Below, piece after piece: positions 88 to 25,444 of a DNA stretch of 64,000 nt. The DNA is from a virus. The position numbers and the translations under genes are program-made. The notes beneath the pieces are model-generated. The model worked only from the letters and a program-made list of their open reading frames with translations. It was not told the DNA's origin and searched no databases. The stretch lies in the IMG/VR virus record IMGVR_UViG_3300033145_001156, positions 1 to 64,000 of that record, one strand, 5' to 3'. Each line of letters starts with the position of its first letter. Within the stretch, counting starts at the first letter, position 1.

Positions 88-453
88 ATGCCACCATCGA
101 AATATGCGAAAGACATCGAGAAGATCAAGACAGCCCTGGCCGGGATAGTGCCGCAGGTGAAGTGCATCCCGGCGATCAAGGAGGCCATGTCGGACATGCG
201 CGTCGAGATGGCCGCGGTGGTGACGAAGATAGACCTGCTCCACGACAGCTGCCCGTACACCGGGGACATCGCGCTGGCAAGGGTGAACCACAAGAAGCTG
301 GGTGACGTGGAGGCAGACATCAAGGAGCTGAGGGAGAAGCGCAGCGAAGACCGCATCGACAGCGTGAAGGTGCTCGCGAAGGTGGCACTGATCGCCGCGT
401 TCGGAGGAGGGACTGCCGTCGGGTTGGACAAGCTGCTTGAATTCTTTCACTAG
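88..453 (+). CDS. Coiled-coil protein with C-terminal membrane segment
   Basis: A 121-residue protein preceded by GAGGAGG. Residues 5-50 and 70-95 are charged helices likely to form a coiled coil. Residues about 96-114 (VLAKVALIAAFGGGTAVGL) form one hydrophobic segment near the C-terminus. This layout resembles small phage proteins that accompany lysis genes (XhlA-like), and a secreted glycoside hydrolase lies nearby, but I see no diagnostic motif. A tail or membrane-tether role is equally possible. Confidence 0.75.
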   Translation: MPPSKYAKDIEKIKTALAGIVPQVKCIPAIKEAMSDMRVEMAAVVTKIDLLHDSCPYTGDIALARVNHKKLGDVEADIKELREKRSEDRIDSVKVLAKVALIAAFGGGTAVGLDKLLEFFH

Positions 454-461
454 GAGGTGCT

Positions 462-1307
462 GTGAGCAGGAAACTCGTAGTAGGACTGGCCGACACGCAT
501 TGCGGTCATAAGTTGGGGCTGCTGAGCCCCGACACCAGGCTCAAGAACGAGACGGGCATCGGGTACTACAAGCCGCAGATGACCAGCCCGCAGGAGTACC
601 TCTGGGGCATATTCCTGGAGGACGTGGAGAGCATCAGGAGGCTGGCCGGGAGAAGCCCGGTCGTCCTGGTGTTGCTGGGCGACTGGATGCAGGGTGAAAG
701 GCACCCGGAGCAGCTGATGACCCAGCGCCTGTCTGACCAGGTCAAGATAGCTGCGGAAGTAATCGACCCGCTGCTGCGCCGCATCAGGAAGGTCGAGAAG
801 GTGCGGGCGGTGATGAGCACCCCGGCGCACGACCCGCTGGGCGCGCTCACCCTGATGGCCTGCGAGCAGATCCGGAAGGAGCACGGGCTGGACATCGAGA
901 CCGCCATCAGGACGGTCGCCAGGATAGGCAAGTTCGCGCTGGACTTCTCGCACAAGGGCCCGCACCCTGGGGGCAGGGCATGGCTGGACGGCAACACAGT
1001 CAGGTACAGGCTGACGGACATGATGCTGCGGGACATACTGCACGGGAAGGAGCCGCCCAGGGTGTACTGGAGGGCGCACCGGCACGAGTACCGCCACGAG
1101 CGCCGGGAGCTGTACGGCATCCCAGACAGGGTGTCCGACTTGTTCATCTTGCCCTCGTACTGCGGGATGGGATACTGGGCGGCGCAGAACATAGACCAAG
1201 CATACCTGACCAACGGGATGGTGGTGCTGGAGGTCATCGACGGCGAGTTCGCGGGATACGAGACGTTCAAGCGGACGAGGGACGTGAGGCTGGAGGAAGC
1301 ATGGTGA
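462..1307 (+). CDS. Calcineurin-like metallophosphoesterase
   Basis: A 281-residue protein starting at GTG after GAGGTG. Metal-binding motifs of the metallophosphatase fold are visible: ADTHCGH near residue 10 (D and H of motif I), LLGDW near residue 73 (motif II) and RAHRHEY near residue 205 (a variant of GHxH). The family hydrolyses phosphomono- or diesters using two metal ions and includes SbcD/Mre11-type nucleases. The sequence does not reveal the substrate. Motif III (GNH) is not obvious, so activity is probable but not certain. It overlaps the next gene by seven bases. Confidence 0.85.
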   Translation: MSRKLVVGLADTHCGHKLGLLSPDTRLKNETGIGYYKPQMTSPQEYLWGIFLEDVESIRRLAGRSPVVLVLLGDWMQGERHPEQLMTQRLSDQVKIAAEVIDPLLRRIRKVEKVRAVMSTPAHDPLGALTLMACEQIRKEHGLDIETAIRTVARIGKFALDFSHKGPHPGGRAWLDGNTVRYRLTDMMLRDILHGKEPPRVYWRAHRHEYRHERRELYGIPDRVSDLFILPSYCGMGYWAAQNIDQAYLTNGMVVLEVIDGEFAGYETFKRTRDVRLEEAW

Positions 1308-1540
1308 CGGAAAAGAAGAGAACCCTGGCCGAGGAGATAGCCCACATCCTGGAGCCCCCGCGGCAGGAGGATGACGAAATCACGGTCAGGGAGTATGCCG
1401 AGTTCAACGAGTGCACAATTCGCATCGCCTATACGCGGCTCATGAACGCCGCCAAGGACGGGAAGATGACCAAGCGGGAGATTTTGGCTGACCGCAACTG
1501 GTCTTGGGTATTCAGGATGGTGAGAGATGAAGAAGATTAG
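1301..1540 (+). CDS. Small protein, possible DNA-binding
   Basis: A 79-residue protein whose ATG lies inside the end of the phosphoesterase gene. The central part (TVREYAEFNECTIRIAYTRL, then a basic stretch) resembles a short helix-turn-helix of the kind that reads a target and recruits a partner. I would not name a family. It overlaps the following glycoside hydrolase start by 14 bases, so the three genes are probably translated as a coupled set. Confidence 0.6.
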   Translation: MVTEKKRTLAEEIAHILEPPRQEDDEITVREYAEFNECTIRIAYTRLMNAAKDGKMTKREILADRNWSWVFRMVRDEED

Positions 1541-2744
1541 CGTCGTCATCTTGACGTTGTTCTTGCTGGGCACGAGGGCGCTGGCCGACAAGAAGGGCGT
1601 CGCCGGGCCTGGCGGCTGCCCGGACGTGCCGCCGCTGCCAGCATTCTACCACGAGCTGGGGGTGAGCTGGGCCTACTCGTGGGCGTGCTGCGACTGGCAC
1701 ACGGGGGTCGAATACGTGCCCATGGTGCGCAGCATCCACGGTTACAGCGCGGACGACCTGATCCGGATGGTGCTGCGGCATGGCAGCGGGTCATACTGGC
1801 TGATAGGCAACGAGCCGGACAACGGGGGGCAGGACGACCTGACCCCGTCCCAGGCCGCCGAGGCGTACGGCGAGATCGCCCAGAACATCCTGCTGGTGGA
1901 CCCGAACGCCAGGCTCATCATGCTGGGACTCCAGAGCGGGAGCTGGGACGGGCGGGAGTACCTGCGGAACTTCCGGGCGGAGTGGATGGAGCGCTGGGGC
2001 TTCGGCGTGGACGACGTCGTGGCTGGCTGGCACGTGCACGCCTACGCCCACCCCTGGGGGGGCCAGACCCAGGACGAGGCCATCGCGCGCGTCAAGACGT
2101 ACGTCCAGGCGTTCCGCATAGAGATCGACAGGGAGAGCTCCGGCGCCGAGCTGTGGGTGACCGAGTACGGCACGCTGTACGGGCCCTACGCGAACACGCT
2201 GCATGTCATGGAGGTCATGACGGAGTGGCTGGAGGGTTACCCGGGGGTGCAGCGGTACGCGTGGTTCTACTTCGGCCACCCCAGCTGCGAGTGGGACGGG
2301 ACGGCGCTGTACACCTGCGCATCCGAGATGTCCTCGCTGGGGAGGTTGTACGCGTCCCTCGCTCCCGGTGCCACTCCGGCAGTCACCCTGTCTCCCAGCA
2401 CGACCCCCGTGCCGAGCCGAACGCCGCCCCCGACATGCACCCCATCCGCGACGATGATTCCCACCCAGACTCCTACCCAGACTCCTACCCTGATCCCCAC
2501 CTCCACACCTGTTCCCAGCTCGACCCCGACTCCCACCCAGACCCCCGCTCTCACGCGAGTCCCCGTCTTCATAGAGCCCCGGCTGGACATGACCGTGTCC
2601 CCTGACCCCGTCGAGCGCGACATGCAGAAGACCCAGGTCTTCATCACGCTGGTGAACCACGTCCGGACCCTGGTCATCGGCGTCCTCCTGGTCGCCGGGC
2701 TGGTGAACGGGATCGACCTCGCCGTCAGGTGGAAGAAGTCCTAG
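1527..2744 (+). CDS. Secreted, membrane-anchored glycoside hydrolase (GH128/Asl1-like)
   Basis: A 405-residue exported enzyme. Residues 1-20 form a signal peptide (KKISVVILTLFLLGTRALA). Residues about 35-285 look like a TIM-barrel glycosidase. WLIGNEPD (about 91-98) supplies a likely acid/base Glu, WHVHAY follows near 168, and VTEYGT (about 211-216) supplies a likely nucleophile Glu. These features match the Asl1/GH128 endo-glucanase type, though family assignment by eye is tentative. Residues about 290-345 are a Thr/Pro/Ser-rich linker, and one transmembrane helix near residues 378-395 ends in basic residues. That fits a surface-tethered enzyme, either virion-borne or displayed on the infected cell. 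The stop codon is followed directly by a 20-bp palindrome. Confidence 0.85.
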   Translation: MKKISVVILTLFLLGTRALADKKGVAGPGGCPDVPPLPAFYHELGVSWAYSWACCDWHTGVEYVPMVRSIHGYSADDLIRMVLRHGSGSYWLIGNEPDNGGQDDLTPSQAAEAYGEIAQNILLVDPNARLIMLGLQSGSWDGREYLRNFRAEWMERWGFGVDDVVAGWHVHAYAHPWGGQTQDEAIARVKTYVQAFRIEIDRESSGAELWVTEYGTLYGPYANTLHVMEVMTEWLEGYPGVQRYAWFYFGHPSCEWDGTALYTCASEMSSLGRLYASLAPGATPAVTLSPSTTPVPSRTPPPTCTPSATMIPTQTPTQTPTLIPTSTPVPSSTPTPTQTPALTRVPVFIEPRLDMTVSPDPVERDMQKTQVFITLVNHVRTLVIGVLLVAGLVNGIDLAVRWKKS

Positions 2745-2761
2745 ACTTTGCGCAAAGTCTA
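2742..2761. repeat. Junction palindrome, copy 1 (longest)
   Basis: TAGACTTTGCGCAAAGTCTA is a perfect 20-bp palindrome. Its first bases are the stop codon of the glycoside hydrolase. It holds the 14-bp core (2745-2758) shared by all copies. Confidence 0.9.
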
Positions 2762-2805
2762 ATCTTAAAATTCTCCGATTTGTTCAAAACTGGTGCTGCA
2801 AACCC

Positions 2806-2834
2806 TTGACAAATGCAGAGAAATGTTGTATAAT
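2806..2834 (+). promoter_or_regulatory. Sigma70-type promoter
   Basis: TTGACA (2806-2811), a 17-base spacer and TATAAT (2829-2834) match the consensus exactly. Transcription would begin near 2841 and lead into the gene at 2876. Confidence 0.9.
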
Positions 2835-2875
2835 ATAGACAGATGAGGGACACGCAGACACAGAGGAGAAAGCAG

Positions 2876-3148
2876 ATGACAAAGCAGGAACAGGAAGCAA
2901 CCAAGCCAAAAGCATATTATACACTAAGTGAGGAGTTCGGGCAGGGAGTGGCAGAGACATACCTGAGTAAATGCAAACGAACAGTCATAGAATTCACGGG
3001 TGATGTGATGTATTTTGGCACGCGCGAGTCACATGATTATAGACTCCTAGTAGCTACCGGCAAAACCAGAGAAGAGCGCGATGCAGTCCGCAAGATCGAC
3101 TGGGCAGCGATCAATGACGAGATGGTGAGGCACACAGCGGGGCATTGA
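2876..3148 (+). CDS. Unknown protein behind a strong promoter
   Basis: A 90-residue protein. The ATG at 2876 is preferred over the in-frame ATG at 2843 because GAGGAG lies eight bases upstream and 2843 falls at the predicted transcription start. The N-terminus is charged (KQEQEATKPKAYY), followed by a mixed alpha/beta sequence. No family recognised. Its own consensus promoter suggests early, strong expression. Confidence 0.75.
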   Translation: MTKQEQEATKPKAYYTLSEEFGQGVAETYLSKCKRTVIEFTGDVMYFGTRESHDYRLLVATGKTREERDAVRKIDWAAINDEMVRHTAGH

Positions 3149-3355
3149 GTCCCGCTGAGGGGCTAGCTGAACGGGACAGACTTACAGTCTGTTGCCTGCT
3201 ATCCCACTGGGTCAACAAATGTGGAGATGCTGGAGCAATCCCAGTAAGTTCCAGGGCAGGCAAGAGGCCATAAAAGATTAGGCCCTACTGATAGCTATAG
3301 ATCCGTAAGGGGTTTAGGCGGACAGAGCGGCTCAATAATGAGTATAGCAACAGGA
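3149..3355 (+). ncRNA. Structured intergenic RNA (candidate)
   Basis: There is no gene in these 207 bases, but several strong hairpins are present: GTCCCG/CGGGAC (3149-3177), ACAGACT/AGTCTGT with a three-base loop (3174-3190), and TTGCCTGC (3192-3199) paired with GCAGGCAA (3256-3263). The last pair encloses ACTGGG/CCCAGT. The nested arms suggest a folded RNA between two genes rather than a terminator, since no T-tract follows. I cannot assign a known class. Confidence 0.45.
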
Positions 3356-3359
3356 GAGG

Positions 3360-3506
3360 ATGAGCATGGCAGACCACATGACCACAGACGATAGAGCGGA
3401 ACAGGTAAGCTGGCTCAGGGAGTTGGCAGTCAACATCTCCGAGAACCTCGGAGAGGGGACGGCTGAGGAGCTGGTCGAATACGCTGAGCGCCACATAACC
3501 AAATAG
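3360..3506 (+). CDS. Small acidic protein
   Basis: A 48-residue protein after AGGAGAGG. Two acidic helices can be predicted (AEQVSWLRELAVNISENL and TAEELVEYAERHI). No family recognised. It is followed by a short gap and another small acidic gene. Confidence 0.55.
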   Translation: MSMADHMTTDDRAEQVSWLRELAVNISENLGEGTAEELVEYAERHITK

Positions 3507-3551
3507 ACAGGAGCTTGCGCCTCTGCCGATTGCCTCACAGGAGGGGATACG

Positions 3552-3758
3552 ATGGACTGGACAAAACGAGTTGGAGAGTTGCACAAAATGGCGCACGACT
3601 ACCATGAGACGCAACCGGCAATGGTAGAGGACTACGAGTCGCCGGAGCAATACGTAGAGGCGATGGTGCGGTGCGTTTGCGCAGGTGAGCATATCACGGA
3701 TCTTGACGAGCGACGGGTGGTTCGCAACGAGTTGGAGCGCATAGTCGGAATCGACTAG
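3552..3758 (+). CDS. Small acidic helical protein
   Basis: A 68-residue protein with AGGAGGGG in front of the ATG. It is largely helical and acidic (HETQPAMVEDYESPEQYVEA), with two Cys (VRCVCAGEH) but no complete metal site. It is one of a run of small accessory genes. Function unknown. Confidence 0.7.
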   Translation: MDWTKRVGELHKMAHDYHETQPAMVEDYESPEQYVEAMVRCVCAGEHITDLDERRVVRNELERIVGID

Positions 3759-3817
3759 CAAGGAGCTTGCCTCGCGGGGCAGGCGAGAGCGGCGCAACGA
3801 TAGCGAGAAGGAATGAG

Positions 3818-4027
3818 ATGATGAAGCCACGATATACATACAAGAATTTCAATACAGTGAAAATCCATTATACCTCTGGGCGATTCATTGGGTGGAGCAA
3901 GGAAACTGGCCCGCTCAATGTCCGATATGCGGGATTTGACCGCGGAGTTACCATGCTCTGGATACCTTTCTACTTGCTGACCAGGGCCACAAAGGACGCG
4001 ATAGCTATATTAGAGGAGGCATCATGA
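3818..4027 (+). CDS. Unknown 69-residue protein
   Basis: Starts at ATG 3818 after GAGAAGG. The sequence is basic and aromatic at the N-terminus (KPRYTYKNFNTVKIHY) and more hydrophobic in the middle (TMLWIPFYLLTRA). It overlaps the start of the ribbon-helix-helix gene by four bases (ATGA), so the two are probably translationally coupled. Confidence 0.7.
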   Translation: MMKPRYTYKNFNTVKIHYTSGRFIGWSKETGPLNVRYAGFDRGVTMLWIPFYLLTRATKDAIAILEEAS

Positions 4028-20132: not shown

Positions 20133-20411
20133 ATGAATAAGATGACGTGGGCACACGCGATAGAGCTTGGGATACTGAGCGATGAAGCCAGCGCATACTT
20201 TGAGGCGCTAGAGGCCGAGGCGCGGGCGAAAGAATCCTTAACCTATGAGTACAGGCGCAGCTTTCCCAGCCCATATCCACCATACGCTGTTCAGTTACAG
20301 GATGGCGTAGCCATCGGTGCGACGGCCAATCTCTATGATGGCGCTGAGAATGAAGACCCCCGAACGTGGCGCTACTATCCCGCCGAGGCCGGGGTATGTG
20401 CTATCGAGTAG
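20133..20411 (+). CDS. Unknown 92-residue protein
   Basis: ATG 20133 gives a seven-base spacing to GGGAGGG. ATG 20127 is too close. The N-terminal helix (THAIELGILSDEASAYFEAL-like) is followed by an aromatic, Pro-rich part (RSFPSPYPPYAVQLQDG). No family recognised. Confidence 0.7.
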   Translation: MNKMTWAHAIELGILSDEASAYFEALEAEARAKESLTYEYRRSFPSPYPPYAVQLQDGVAIGATANLYDGAENEDPRTWRYYPAEAGVCAIE

Positions 20412-20478
20412 CTCGAAACGCCCCACGGGGCGTCCACCGGTGAGGCCGGTGCTGATGAGAGCAGACGGGAGGAGGAGG

Positions 20479-23362: not shown

Positions 23363-23772
23363 TGCTGAGGGAACGAGCACTAGAAGCGTGGATCGAAGAG
23401 GAGAGGGGCCGGAAGGATGCTCAGGAGCGCACGGACGTCGGGCTGTTCAGGAGGGCCAGGGAGCATTTCTCCAAGGCGTTCGGGGTGGAACCTGAGGTTG
23501 TCAAGCGCACCAGCCACTGGGTCGAGGTGGGGGCCGGGGGCATGGTGTTCTTCTTCAACCCGATGACGAAGACTTACTGGTTGTGGGGCGAGTGCCCGGA
23601 CTGCGGATGGCATTGCTGGTCGTCGCGCGGGTTCCAGACGCTGGGCGAGATGGGGAGGGTGATTGCCGAGTTCAAGCCTGAGGGGCACAAGTGCGGGACC
23701 CCAGAGGATGTGGAGGAGACTGCCGCTGAGACTTTGCGCAAAGCGTGGCGAGCCTTTATGATGGAGGAGTGA
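23362..23772 (+). CDS. Zinc-ribbon protein
   Basis: A 136-residue protein. Residues about 60-100 form a beta-rich zinc domain (WLWGECPDCGWHCWSSRGF), with further Cys at HKCG. The C-terminal TAAETLRKAWRAF is encoded partly by a junction palindrome. It may bind single-stranded nucleic acid, but that is speculation. Its TGA overlaps the ATG of a small gene that the TnpB element interrupts. Confidence 0.75.
   Translation: MLRERALEAWIEEERGRKDAQERTDVGLFRRAREHFSKAFGVEPEVVKRTSHWVEVGAGGMVFFFNPMTKTYWLWGECPDCGWHCWSSRGFQTLGEMGRVIAEFKPEGHKCGTPEDVEETAAETLRKAWRAFMMEE
23731..23744. repeat. Junction palindrome, copy 7 (variant)
   Basis: ACTTTGCGCAAAGC, inside the 3' end of a coding region (encodes TLRKA), 28 bases before its stop. 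Confidence 0.75.
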
Positions 23773-23798
23773 TGAAGGAGCGAATAAGGAAATGGAAT

Positions 23799-23827
23799 TT
23801 GACAATTTCGTAGAGATGTAGTATACT
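23799..23827 (+). promoter_or_regulatory. Sigma70-type promoter of tnpB
   Basis: TTGACA (23799-23804), 17 bases, TATACT (23822-23827). It begins 14 bases inside the left boundary of the element. Start predicted near 23834. Confidence 0.85.
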
Positions 23828-23835
23828 ATTGACAC

Positions 23836-23935
23836 TGCGAAGAACCGATAGCGTTTCCGAGGACTTTCTTTTGGGGCTAATCCCCGAGATTAAGCGCTGG
23901 TTCTTCGCAGGAAGCAGCCTTGGGTCTCGGGGATT
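23836..23935 (+). ncRNA. Pseudoknot-type leader R3
   Basis: TGCGAAGAACC (23836-23846) pairs perfectly with 23899-23909. AATCCCCGAGA (23879-23889) in its loop pairs perfectly with TCTCGGGGATT (23925-23935) outside it. GGGG-cta-ATCCCC is a competing local hairpin. Same S1-A-S1'-A' order as R1 and R2, again starting at the predicted transcription start and ending about 22 bases before the start codon. Confidence 0.65.
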
Positions 23936-23957
23936 GTCTATTTCTGGAGATGATTGA

Positions 23958-25073
23958 ATGATCAGAGCAAGAGCATATAAGACGAAGCTGAAATTGAATA
24001 ATTGTGAGAAGACGTGGTGCAGGCGGTGTGCTGGTGCATCACGTTTTTGTTATAATTGGGGCCTGGCCCAAATGAAAGAAGCTTATGAGCAAGGAAGAGA
24101 GACGAGCGTGGGGGCTGAGAAGAAGCGCCTCAATGCCACCAAGGATGAAATCGCTCCGTGGTTGCGGGATGTACCTTATGCTGTGTTGCAGTCTGCATTT
24201 GATAACCTGTTCAAGGCATACTTGAATTTCTTTCGGAGGGTGAAGAAGAGGAAAGGCCCGGCAGGATTCCCGAAGTTCAAGTCGAGGCGTAATTCGCGGC
24301 AATCATTTACTCTACGAGGCAGTATTCAGCTCACGGAGACTGGTATCAAGTTGCCCCGTATCGGTTGGTTGCGGTTGGCAGAACATGGTTACATGCCTAC
24401 AACAAAGCGGGCGCGAATCTTGTCGGTGAACGTCTCAACCCGAGACCACGGGCTAACCTGGTATGCCAGTATCCAGGTAGAGGAAAGTGTACCTGAACCT
24501 ACCCCGGCGACTGGTGAACCACTGGGGATTGACCTGGGGATACATGCATTGGCGGTGCTGAGTGACGGTACGGTGTATGAGAACATCAAGCCATTGAGGA
24601 CGGCGCAACGAAAGGTGAAGCGGCTGTCGAAGGAATTAGCGCGTCGCACGAAGGGCGGCAAGAACTGGCTGAAAACCAAGGCCAAGTTGAACAAGGCTCA
24701 TTTGCATGCGCGGAATGTTCGGTTATCTTACCTGCACCAGATCAGCGCCGAGACAATTGCAAAGTATCCCAGAGTGATCGTGATGGAAGACCTCAATGTA
24801 GCAGGGATGGTAAAGAATCACTGTCTGGCGAGAGCGATAGCAGATTTAGGGATGTATGAGGTTAGGAGACAGATGAGCTATAAGGCTGCGTGGAATGGTT
24901 CTGAGTTCAAGTTGGCTTCCAGATGGTATCCTTCCTCGAAGGCATGTTCTGGGTGTGGGTGCATCAAGGACGGGTTGACGCTGGCCGACCGGACGTTCAC
25001 TTGCTCGGACTGTGGACTAGCGATCGATCGAGACCTAAACGCGGCCTTGAACCTGGCGGCGTTGGCACGTTAA
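23958..25073 (+). CDS. tnpB: TnpB RNA-guided nuclease (IS605 OrfB family)
   Basis: A 371-residue protein with an intact RuvC-like active site: GIDLGIHALA (Asp about 192), IVMEDLNVAGM (Glu about 277) and DRDLNAALNL (Asp about 357-359). A zinc ribbon, CSGCG ... CSDCG (Cys 330, 333, 349, 352), lies between the last two. The N-terminal half (residues 1-180) matches the helical and beta-barrel region of TnpB that binds the target-adjacent motif and the omegaRNA. TnpB proteins cut DNA guided by an RNA made from the transposon end. The enzyme should be active. It lies in the middle of a defined insertion and is followed by its likely guide RNA region. Confidence 0.95.
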   Translation: MIRARAYKTKLKLNNCEKTWCRRCAGASRFCYNWGLAQMKEAYEQGRETSVGAEKKRLNATKDEIAPWLRDVPYAVLQSAFDNLFKAYLNFFRRVKKRKGPAGFPKFKSRRNSRQSFTLRGSIQLTETGIKLPRIGWLRLAEHGYMPTTKRARILSVNVSTRDHGLTWYASIQVEESVPEPTPATGEPLGIDLGIHALAVLSDGTVYENIKPLRTAQRKVKRLSKELARRTKGGKNWLKTKAKLNKAHLHARNVRLSYLHQISAETIAKYPRVIVMEDLNVAGMVKNHCLARAIADLGMYEVRRQMSYKAAWNGSEFKLASRWYPSSKACSGCGCIKDGLTLADRTFTCSDCGLAIDRDLNAALNLAALAR

Positions 25074-25218
25074 CAACCGTTGGAGGCCCCCAGAACCGGG
25101 GGTGACTGCCTGGGGAGTTGGAGTGCTGTAATGCTCTACTATGAACCAGGAAAGGCGCAGAGGAAGTCGCTCATAAGTCGCCTGGGGAATCCATGCAAGT
25201 TTATGCAGTTTGCATAGG
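25074..25218 (+). ncRNA. Candidate omegaRNA scaffold downstream of tnpB
   Basis: A GC-rich, hairpin-containing stretch without a gene: GGAGGCCCCC, then CCCCCAG/CTGGG-type pairings, GCGACTT/AAGTCGC-like arms (AGTCGCTCATAAGTCGC), and TATGCA-gtt-TGCATA just before the first repeat. In IS605-type elements the guide RNA scaffold overlaps the end of tnpB and extends to the right end, which is exactly this interval. Boundaries are inferred. Confidence 0.5.
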
Positions 25219-25309
25219 GTTTCCCCCACGCACGTGTGGGGAGTTTGAACACCATCTGCTACTACGCGGTGAAGCGGAACGTTTCCCCCACGCACGTGTG
25301 GGGAGTTTG
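25219..25309 (+). CRISPR. Two-repeat, one-spacer CRISPR-like array at the TnpB element's right end
   Basis: A 29-nt sequence starting GTTTCCCCCACGCACG and ending GTGTGGGGAGTTTG occurs at 25219-25247 and, identically, at 25281-25309. The spacer between is 33 nt (25248-25280). CCCCAC-gcacgt-GTGGGG forms the hairpin. The dimensions fit a type I-E-like mini-array, but the hairpin followed by GGGGAGTTT is also the form of an IS605 right end and omegaRNA 3' end. No cas genes are nearby. I saw no match to the spacer elsewhere in the window. Confidence 0.75.
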
Positions 25310-25444
25310 GAGCGAACGAAGTTCCGTCTGTATCGGTGGTGGGCGAAGCTAACAGGCGAACCGGTGATCATCTGTTGTCAGAAGAGACGTGCGCCCAGGT
25401 GGTGGATTGTGTTTCCGCACAGGGGGAGATGATGAGGAAGGGAA

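Follow-up and report, generated by a model that had tools for sequence, protein, structure and literature searches.

A CRISPR-like array behind a phage tnpB gene, and similar arrays at tnpB genes of other phages

Introduction

Among described systems, TnpB of the ISDra2-type IS200/IS605 transposons offers the first comparison for the element considered here, a tnpB gene followed by a short array resembling clustered regularly interspaced short palindromic repeats (CRISPR). The element lies in IMG/VR virus record IMGVR_UViG_3300033145_001156, of which positions 1 to 64,000 were analysed as one stretch of 64,000 nucleotides (nt), hereafter the window. It shares with the ISDra2 type the protein family, the RuvC domain and zinc ribbon, and a putative guide RNA (omegaRNA) scaffold at the 3' end of tnpB; in several relatives this region closes with a hairpin containing GGGG, and the guide follows. 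It differs from that type in that a CRISPR-like array replaces the single guide, in that no TnpA is found in the record, and in a predicted pseudoknot in the 5' leader. TranC (LaTranC), which reportedly is a TnpB-derived nuclease using both transposon-type and CRISPR guides, is comparable to the window TnpB as well; its sequence, however, matches the window protein more weakly than TnpB does, with the best stretch at the C-terminus.

Several CRISPR-associated systems are also similar in part. The type V-N (V-U4) effector Cas12n is likewise a small TnpB-like protein, for which one report places the trans-activating CRISPR RNA (tracrRNA) inside the effector mRNA (PMC11641405); the window protein, at 371 amino acids (aa) against 400-700 or more, is shorter, falls below the existing NCBIfam Cas12 cut-offs and is phage-borne. 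Cyanophage CL131 carries a type V-U2 system in which a TnpB-like gene stands beside an array with no other cas genes, but the repeats there are 36 nt and the spacers 26-45 nt long, and no tracrRNA was identified (PMC6293099). Viral mini-arrays, such as those of SPV1 and SPV2, resemble the window array in placing one or a few spacers on a virus; their repeats are identical to those of the host, whereas the repeats described here stand behind a TnpB scaffold (PMC11656645). The updated CRISPR classification infers about 50 events in which TnpB became linked to CRISPR arrays or to adaptation modules and anticipates others (PMC12669027), and two TnpBs near arrays were noted in landfill phages (PMC12607003). 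A literature search that left most subscription papers outside its reach found no description of 29-nt arrays fused to a TnpB scaffold. The loci bear on an open question, namely how the single-guide TnpB of a transposon turned into a CRISPR effector whose memory of spacers grows.

Results and discussion

A two-repeat array at the end of an intact-looking tnpB

The central observation of the original prediction, two identical 29-nt repeats around a 33-nt spacer behind tnpB, was confirmed on the plus strand at 25219-25247 (repeat 1), 25248-25280 (spacer 1) and 25281-25309 (repeat 2). Both repeats read GTTTCCCCCACGCACGTGTGGGGAGTTTG, are 100% identical and start 62 nt apart, with repeat 1 beginning 145 nt after the tnpB stop codon. 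No third copy was found in the 105,622-base record that contains the window when up to three mismatches were allowed, and IMG/VR held no exact match to the repeat in a search that possibly excluded records very near that of the window. The spacer, for which sequence searches gave no match, is open in one frame as NTICYYAVKRN. The record belongs to a tailed phage, as four of the eight proteins tried (a large terminase, a portal, a head protein and a DnaB-like helicase) match PHROGs.

The gene itself (23958-25073, plus strand) encodes a 371-aa protein for which the description as catalytically complete fits, insofar as it looks intact. Residues D192 (GIDLG), E277 (MEDLN) and D359 (DRDLN) and cysteines C330, C333, C349 and C352 are present and invariant across the proteins of two array-bearing relatives, L028 and L004; following ISDra2, we take the first three to be the catalytic RuvC residues and the cysteines to form the zinc ribbon. 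The Pfam models OrfB_IS605, Cas12f1-like_TNB and HTH_OrfB_IS605 all match above cut-off, and NCBIfam guided_TnpB reaches 285.6 bits (cut-off 100). Protein searches of IMG/VR returned TnpB relatives that are 27-49% identical in the listed best segments.

These matches bear on the explanation that the locus is an ordinary type V-U system, in which the protein would already be a Cas12 near V-U4/Cas12n served by a normal tracrRNA and array, and no intermediate would be involved. We regard this as quite unlikely. In its favour, the PADLOC Cas12u4 model and one Cas12f model each give about 260 bits for the window protein, both models being without a cut-off here, and a tracrRNA within the effector mRNA has a precedent in Cas12n. 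On the other hand, the six NCBIfam matches of the window protein, among which no Cas12n model occurs, include two Cas12-type models (C2c8 and Cas12f2) that fall far below their own cut-offs, and the proteins of the window, L028, L053 and L004 all pass the guided_TnpB cut-off while none of the four reaches that of an NCBIfam Cas12 model. Solved structures point the same way: the best match is 9yyg, an AI-designed nuclease (5e-67), chain 8bf8, which we take to be ISDra2 TnpB, gives 8e-57, and LaTranC is far weaker (E 4e-24). The repeats, at 28-29 nt in all arrays described below, are also shorter than those of CL131, a phage V-U2 system whose repeats measure 36 nt.

The claim that repeat 2 ends exactly at the insertion junction is plausible. 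ATG AAG GAG CGA at 23772-23783 and an in-frame GAG CGA ACG AAG TTC running from 25310 to a stop can be read as a single split gene of 42 codons, so that 25310-25432 (plus strand) would be the putative 3' part of an interrupted open reading frame starting at 23772 and at the same time the native guide region behind repeat 2. Against this, the 8-nt sequence GGAGCGAA occurs at both 23777-23784 and 25309-25316, and no empty insertion site was found, a search for a relative of the upstream gene having given none. An 8-nt duplication at both ends is not expected from a simple IS605 insertion.

A putative junction at this position would also suit an origin of the arrays by repeated or nested IS605-type insertions, in which the repeats would be copies of the right end and the "spacers" target sites. 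Some right-end hairpins do resemble the repeats, and one spacer (spacer 2 of L004) resembles the left side of its own element at 29 of 32 positions. We nevertheless consider this origin highly improbable, because it is not expected to yield five arrays whose 13 spacers all measure 31-34 nt; moreover, eight phage records, that of the window included, gave no Y1 transposase, and a serine recombinase was found in just one of the eight, G005, those of the window, L004, L028 and L053 having given none. Stand-alone TnpBs are common.

Arrays with the same dimensions behind other phage tnpB genes

The 700 nt behind each of 79 TnpB matches were searched for similar arrays; because L010 and L059 are the same locus, these represent 78 distinct loci, and the window, L028 and L004 also appear in the data as L001, L051 and L059, respectively. 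Arrays with 29-nt repeats stand behind five of the 78 (window, L028, L004, L053 and L055), or five of the 79 regions as sampled. The TnpB of L004 is 39% identical to that of the window, and its gene is followed by 29-nt repeats with a period of 61 nt. IMG/VR was then scanned with a pattern reproducing the palindrome and spacing of these repeats and of those in the window; the scan returned five stretches, namely the L004 contig (by construction) and four others, one of which, L028, proved to be a regular array directly behind a TnpB although it had been found through the repeat and not through the protein. These counts support the view that the repeats belong with TnpB, and the four further phage arrays, with three to five repeats each, answer the proposed search for related elements while correcting the notion that the arrangement exists in one element. 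The three remaining stretches, L024, L025 and L026, were a terminator-like pair, repeats within a gene and 23-nt tandem repeats; they are not arrays, and no TnpB-like open reading frame was seen in the stretch read.

The arrays are regular in their dimensions and different in their sequences. Counting mismatches to repeat 1 from tnpB outwards, L028 has five repeats (0, 0, 0, 2 and 6 mismatches; spacers of 32, 32, 33 and 33 nt) beginning 68 nt after the tnpB stop, L004 three (0, 0 and 5; spacers of 32 and 32 nt) beginning at 104 nt, L053 three (0, 0 and 3; spacers of 34 and 32 nt) at 60 nt, and L055 five (0, 0, 0, 0 and 8; spacers of 33, 33, 32 and 31 nt) at 59 nt. Together with the window, the five arrays have repeats of 28-29 nt, periods of 60-63 nt and 13 spacers of 31-34 nt that are all different. 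Repeats 1 and 2 are identical in every one of the five, and in all four arrays with at least two spacers the degenerate repeat is the one farthest from tnpB, a polarity known from CRISPR arrays that gain their spacers beside the leader, and one that the single spacer of the window does not allow to be judged. An origin of the arrays by chance or by tandem duplication was ruled out by the presence of up to four different spacers of nearly equal length. We regard the arrangement as real and recurrent. It is a variant, with unusual repeat and spacer lengths, of the TnpB-to-CRISPR transition already known: TnpBs of more than one lineage carry one to four spacers at the omegaRNA end, in arrays whose lengths are those of an unrelated class 1, type I-E-like integrase.

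Type I-E arrays normally have a repeat of about 29 nt with a palindrome, a period of about 61 nt and spacers of the 33-nt class, and the window array, with its CCCCAC-GTGGGG palindrome, has these dimensions. The same likeness would be explained by a host-derived mini-array, that is, a repeat-spacer unit taken from a type I-E locus of the host and served by the host Cascade, with TnpB as a bystander. Viral mini-arrays with host-identical repeats have been described (PMC11656645), and no Cas1 was found in 13 phage records (8 + 5, possibly fragments) by a search that was positive in nine of 14 control genomes. Nevertheless, repeat 1 lies 59-145 nt behind the tnpB stop in all five arrays, and the window, L028, L004 and L053/L055 have four separate repeat sequences, each its own. 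Their ends (GTTTG, ATTGG, ATTCG and CAGGGG) are not ATGAACCG-like, as those of type I-E repeats usually are. A host type I-E array with the window repeat, which had been named as the finding that would detach the array from TnpB, was not found in 396 bacterial genomes of one phylum, which may not be the host's, and plasmids and phages gave weak matches only (E 7-10). Overall, a host-derived mini-array appears unlikely.

Other repeat-bearing loci were kept apart from this count. In 27 TnpB loci of bacterial genomes, drawn from the best matches of the same 396 genomes, no 29-nt array was accepted; one candidate, L144, carries a TGTTTCACGTGGAACA-containing unit twice, 61 nt apart and about 177 nt behind the tnpB match, and was set aside as a parS pair, TGTTTCACGTGGAACA presumably being the parS consensus. 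L104 and L106 have arrays with repeats of about 36-37 nt and a period of 64-66 nt; their proteins are TnpB-like (27-28% identity) and form a separate pair in the tree, and they are likely ordinary phage type V-U systems. L052 has three repeats and a scaffold-like core upstream of tnpB (2230-2480; periods 54 and 60) and a second scaffold-like stretch downstream, so that its guide locus may have been split from the gene; it is treated as an array bearer in the tree and stands outside the five arrays listed above. Further repeats near TnpBs were seen in L073 (period 76), L078 (period 56), L044 (period 46) and L111, along with short ones.

An omegaRNA-like scaffold in front of the repeats

Between tnpB and repeat 1, the stretch 25074-25218 (plus strand) is by inspection an omegaRNA-like scaffold, or array leader, with a core of GCCTGGGGAG (25108-25117) and TGAACCAGGAA (25142-25152). 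By eye, this core resembles the 3'-end region of the TnpBs L028, L018, L004, L060 and L047, and the window and L028 have in common GA(C/T)TGCCTGGGGAGTTG..GTG.TGTAATG...TACT.TGAACCAGGAA, which in L028 overlaps the end of tnpB; directly before repeat 1 the two read ..GCATAGG or ..GCATATAGG. A core of this kind is present in array-less relatives too, three of which (L060, L047 and L096) also show by eye a terminal hairpin with CCCC and GGGGAG..GTCAA; the hairpin of L060, AATCCCCCATGATTTAGCCGTGGGGAGTGTCAA, resembles the window repeat. A rough core pattern matched 21 of the 79 downstream regions, the generality of the core being judged by inspection, and Rfam gave no plausible match for the putative scaffold.

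Within this leader, RNA folding predicted a hairpin (25184-25225, plus strand) formed by GGGGAATCC (25184-25192) and, where repeat 1 begins, GGGTTTCCC (25217-25225), as an alternative to the repeat's own hairpin. It is not significant, since the whole fold has a z of -0.84 with 42 of 200 shuffles as good and the duplex was matched by 138 of 500. Because scaffold-repeat pairing does not stand out in the window, a model in which scaffold, repeat 1 and spacer 1 act in cis as one guide is preferred for spacer 1.

Array bearers among array-less TnpBs, and exchange of the tnpB cassette

In a tree of 41 chosen rows, array-bearing proteins are interspersed among array-less TnpBs, which is a further point against an ordinary type V-U system. 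The bearers of 29-nt arrays occupy three places: the window with L028 (support 99/90), L004 near L019, L020 and L040 (81/59), and L053 with L118. The group of the window and L028 also holds the array-less L018 and L052 with its upstream array. The distribution of arrays on the tree requires four changes, of which at least three are forced by well-supported branches. A single, vertically inherited array-bearing clade was rejected in the approximately unbiased (AU) test (p = 0.00166 with L052 and 0.0016 without), as was the joining of L004 to the window and L028 (p = 0.0022). By these trees, array-bearing TnpBs come from one other lineage besides that of the window and probably from two; gain with loss, exchange of arrays and independent gains are not told apart by the tree.

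Exchange is suggested by G068, a 143-kb record (loci L053-L056) in which two related phages lie end to end, with aligned pieces of more than 700 bp that are 71-91% identical outside the cassette; the record is probably a mis-join of the two. The tnpB module is 95.5% identical over 1,565 bp between both phages, and in windows of 150 columns the identity is 90-100% across the tnpB cassette and 43-83% outside it, with the drop where the array begins. The two arrays hold two and four spacers and share none of the six. Each is also known from elsewhere, the one from G069 and G070 and the other from L137, and the assignment of each array to its phage within G068 is uncertain because of the join. The comparison suggests that the tnpB cassette has been exchanged between phages with turnover of its spacers.

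A proposed route from omegaRNA hairpin to CRISPR repeat

The reading that we favour, without great confidence, is that a phage TnpB of the IS605 type has been caught between transposon and CRISPR, the 3' hairpin of its omegaRNA having become a CRISPR repeat that is extended by Cas1-Cas2 in trans. The terminal CCCC-loop-GGGG hairpin, at which the guide normally starts, would be taken for a CRISPR repeat by Cas1-Cas2 acting in trans, most likely that of a host type I-E system. Each integration would take place at the junction of scaffold and repeat, copying the repeat and placing the new spacer nearest the scaffold. Scaffold, repeat 1 and spacer 1 would then already constitute a single guide RNA, TnpB being re-programmed by whichever spacer is newest; older spacers, lying farther away, could be used only if the scaffold also worked in trans, in the manner of a tracrRNA. 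The benefit to the phage would be a nuclease that can be re-programmed, perhaps for use against mobile elements that compete with it. The window array would have undergone one integration, which added repeat 1 and spacer 1 to the original omegaRNA end, now seen as repeat 2. Because the degenerate repeat lies far from tnpB in all four multi-spacer arrays, repeat 1 and spacer 1 were probably added last, so that the order given by the original prediction, which had taken them for an older scaffold end and a retained guide, is probably reversed.

Since no Cas1 was found in the 13 phage records, insertion of spacers must act in trans if the arrays grow, and an integrase of type I-E is favoured because the repeats are about 29 nt long and the periods 60-63 nt. 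Overexpressed Cas1-Cas2 of E. coli has been reported to integrate outside arrays (PMC11788318, in a passage citing Nivala 2018). A more specific proposal is that host type I-E Cas1-Cas2 writes spacers into the omegaRNA end hairpin, that each is instantly a cis guide requiring neither a tracrRNA nor a cas gene, that such events took place in phages on more than one occasion, and that they are a route to type V; taken whole, this appears rather doubtful to us. The presence of type I-E-like lengths at an omegaRNA end makes such a borrowed-integrase route testable. If true, phages would own a very small re-programmable nuclease (about 370-400 aa) that is exchanged as a cassette.

Several observations weigh against our reading. 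The window array holds one spacer only, and L018, a member of the window's supported group, lacks an array. The groups compared in the AU test were named after a first tree had been seen, and joining L053 to the window and L028 was only marginally rejected (p = 0.0335). In the L004 relatives L019, L020 and L040, no CCCC/GGGG end hairpin is visible by eye that could have given rise to the L004 repeat. Only the lengths and the palindrome point to a type I-E integrase. Pairing between scaffold and repeat (anti-repeat) is significant in two of six scaffolds, L028 (0 of 500 shuffles as good) and L053 (7 of 500), and not in the window (138), L055 (181), L004 (65) or L052 (64). Lastly, when 15 spacers (the 13 above and two putative ones of L052) were compared with seven phage records, a single match beyond the own array was obtained, for spacer 2 of L004; codon-degenerate scans of IMG/VR gave no match for the window spacer and only its own array for one spacer of L053.

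A general anti-repeat or tracrRNA across the loci was rejected on the pairing counts. The strong anti-repeat of L028, in which TGTGGGATTCAAC pairs with GTTGAACCCACA, is a point for the ordinary type V-U system considered above.

The match of L004 spacer 2 covers 29 of 32 positions in its own contig (L004 2751-2782 and 4341-4372), about 205-235 nt upstream of tnpB, in a stretch resembling a terminator and a ribosome-binding site. The other spacers had no match above the level of shuffled spacers in the seven phage records, seven spacers compared with three records had no target, and spacer 1 of L055 matched its own arrays only in eight virus records. The proposed search of phage sequences with the window spacer likewise yielded no target, the best match in phage records being 20 of 21 letters (E = 1). 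A role of the arrays in competition between phages is a guess.

The 5' leader and other observations

Upstream of tnpB, a sigma70-like promoter (TTGACA-17-TATACT) can be read directly at 23799-23827 (plus strand), and the tnpB genes of L028 and L053 likewise have TTGACA promoters in front of them. It is followed on the same strand by two predicted crossing stems: stem 1 (23835-23910) pairs 23835-23847 with 23898-23910 over 13 bp and stem 2 (23878-23936) pairs 23878-23891 with 23923-23936 over 14 bp, both including G-U pairs, and together they would form a pseudoknot with a crossing-stem score of 63 that none of 200 dinucleotide shuffles reached. The window, L028 and L053/L055 share this predicted layout, with near-perfect stems (13-19 bp and 14-17 bp) that cross and are unlike in sequence; none of 200 shuffles reached any of them, in stretches that were picked once the stems were known. 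In ten further TnpB upstream regions, those of the array loci L004 and L052 included, nothing stood out, with 11 to 100 of 100 shuffles as good. When uniform 200-nt windows were applied to 91 distinct upstream regions, the six top scores were those of L051, L053, L055, L056, L001 and L105, the last with a weak first stem. The 3' arm of stem 2 is not the same in the two G068 copies, yet G-U pairs preserve the pairing. The leader pseudoknot may control translation of TnpB. In L105, the 200 nt upstream of tnpB contain a 20-bp stem scoring as high as the window pseudoknot, with a weak partner stem.

Elsewhere in the window, 20410-20470 (plus strand) matches the Hammerhead type II ribozyme (RF02276) at 39.1 bits against a gathering score of 37. 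In L037, positions 302-3895 (plus strand) encode a 1,197-aa protein with a very long repeat tract made up nearly exclusively of serine and threonine.

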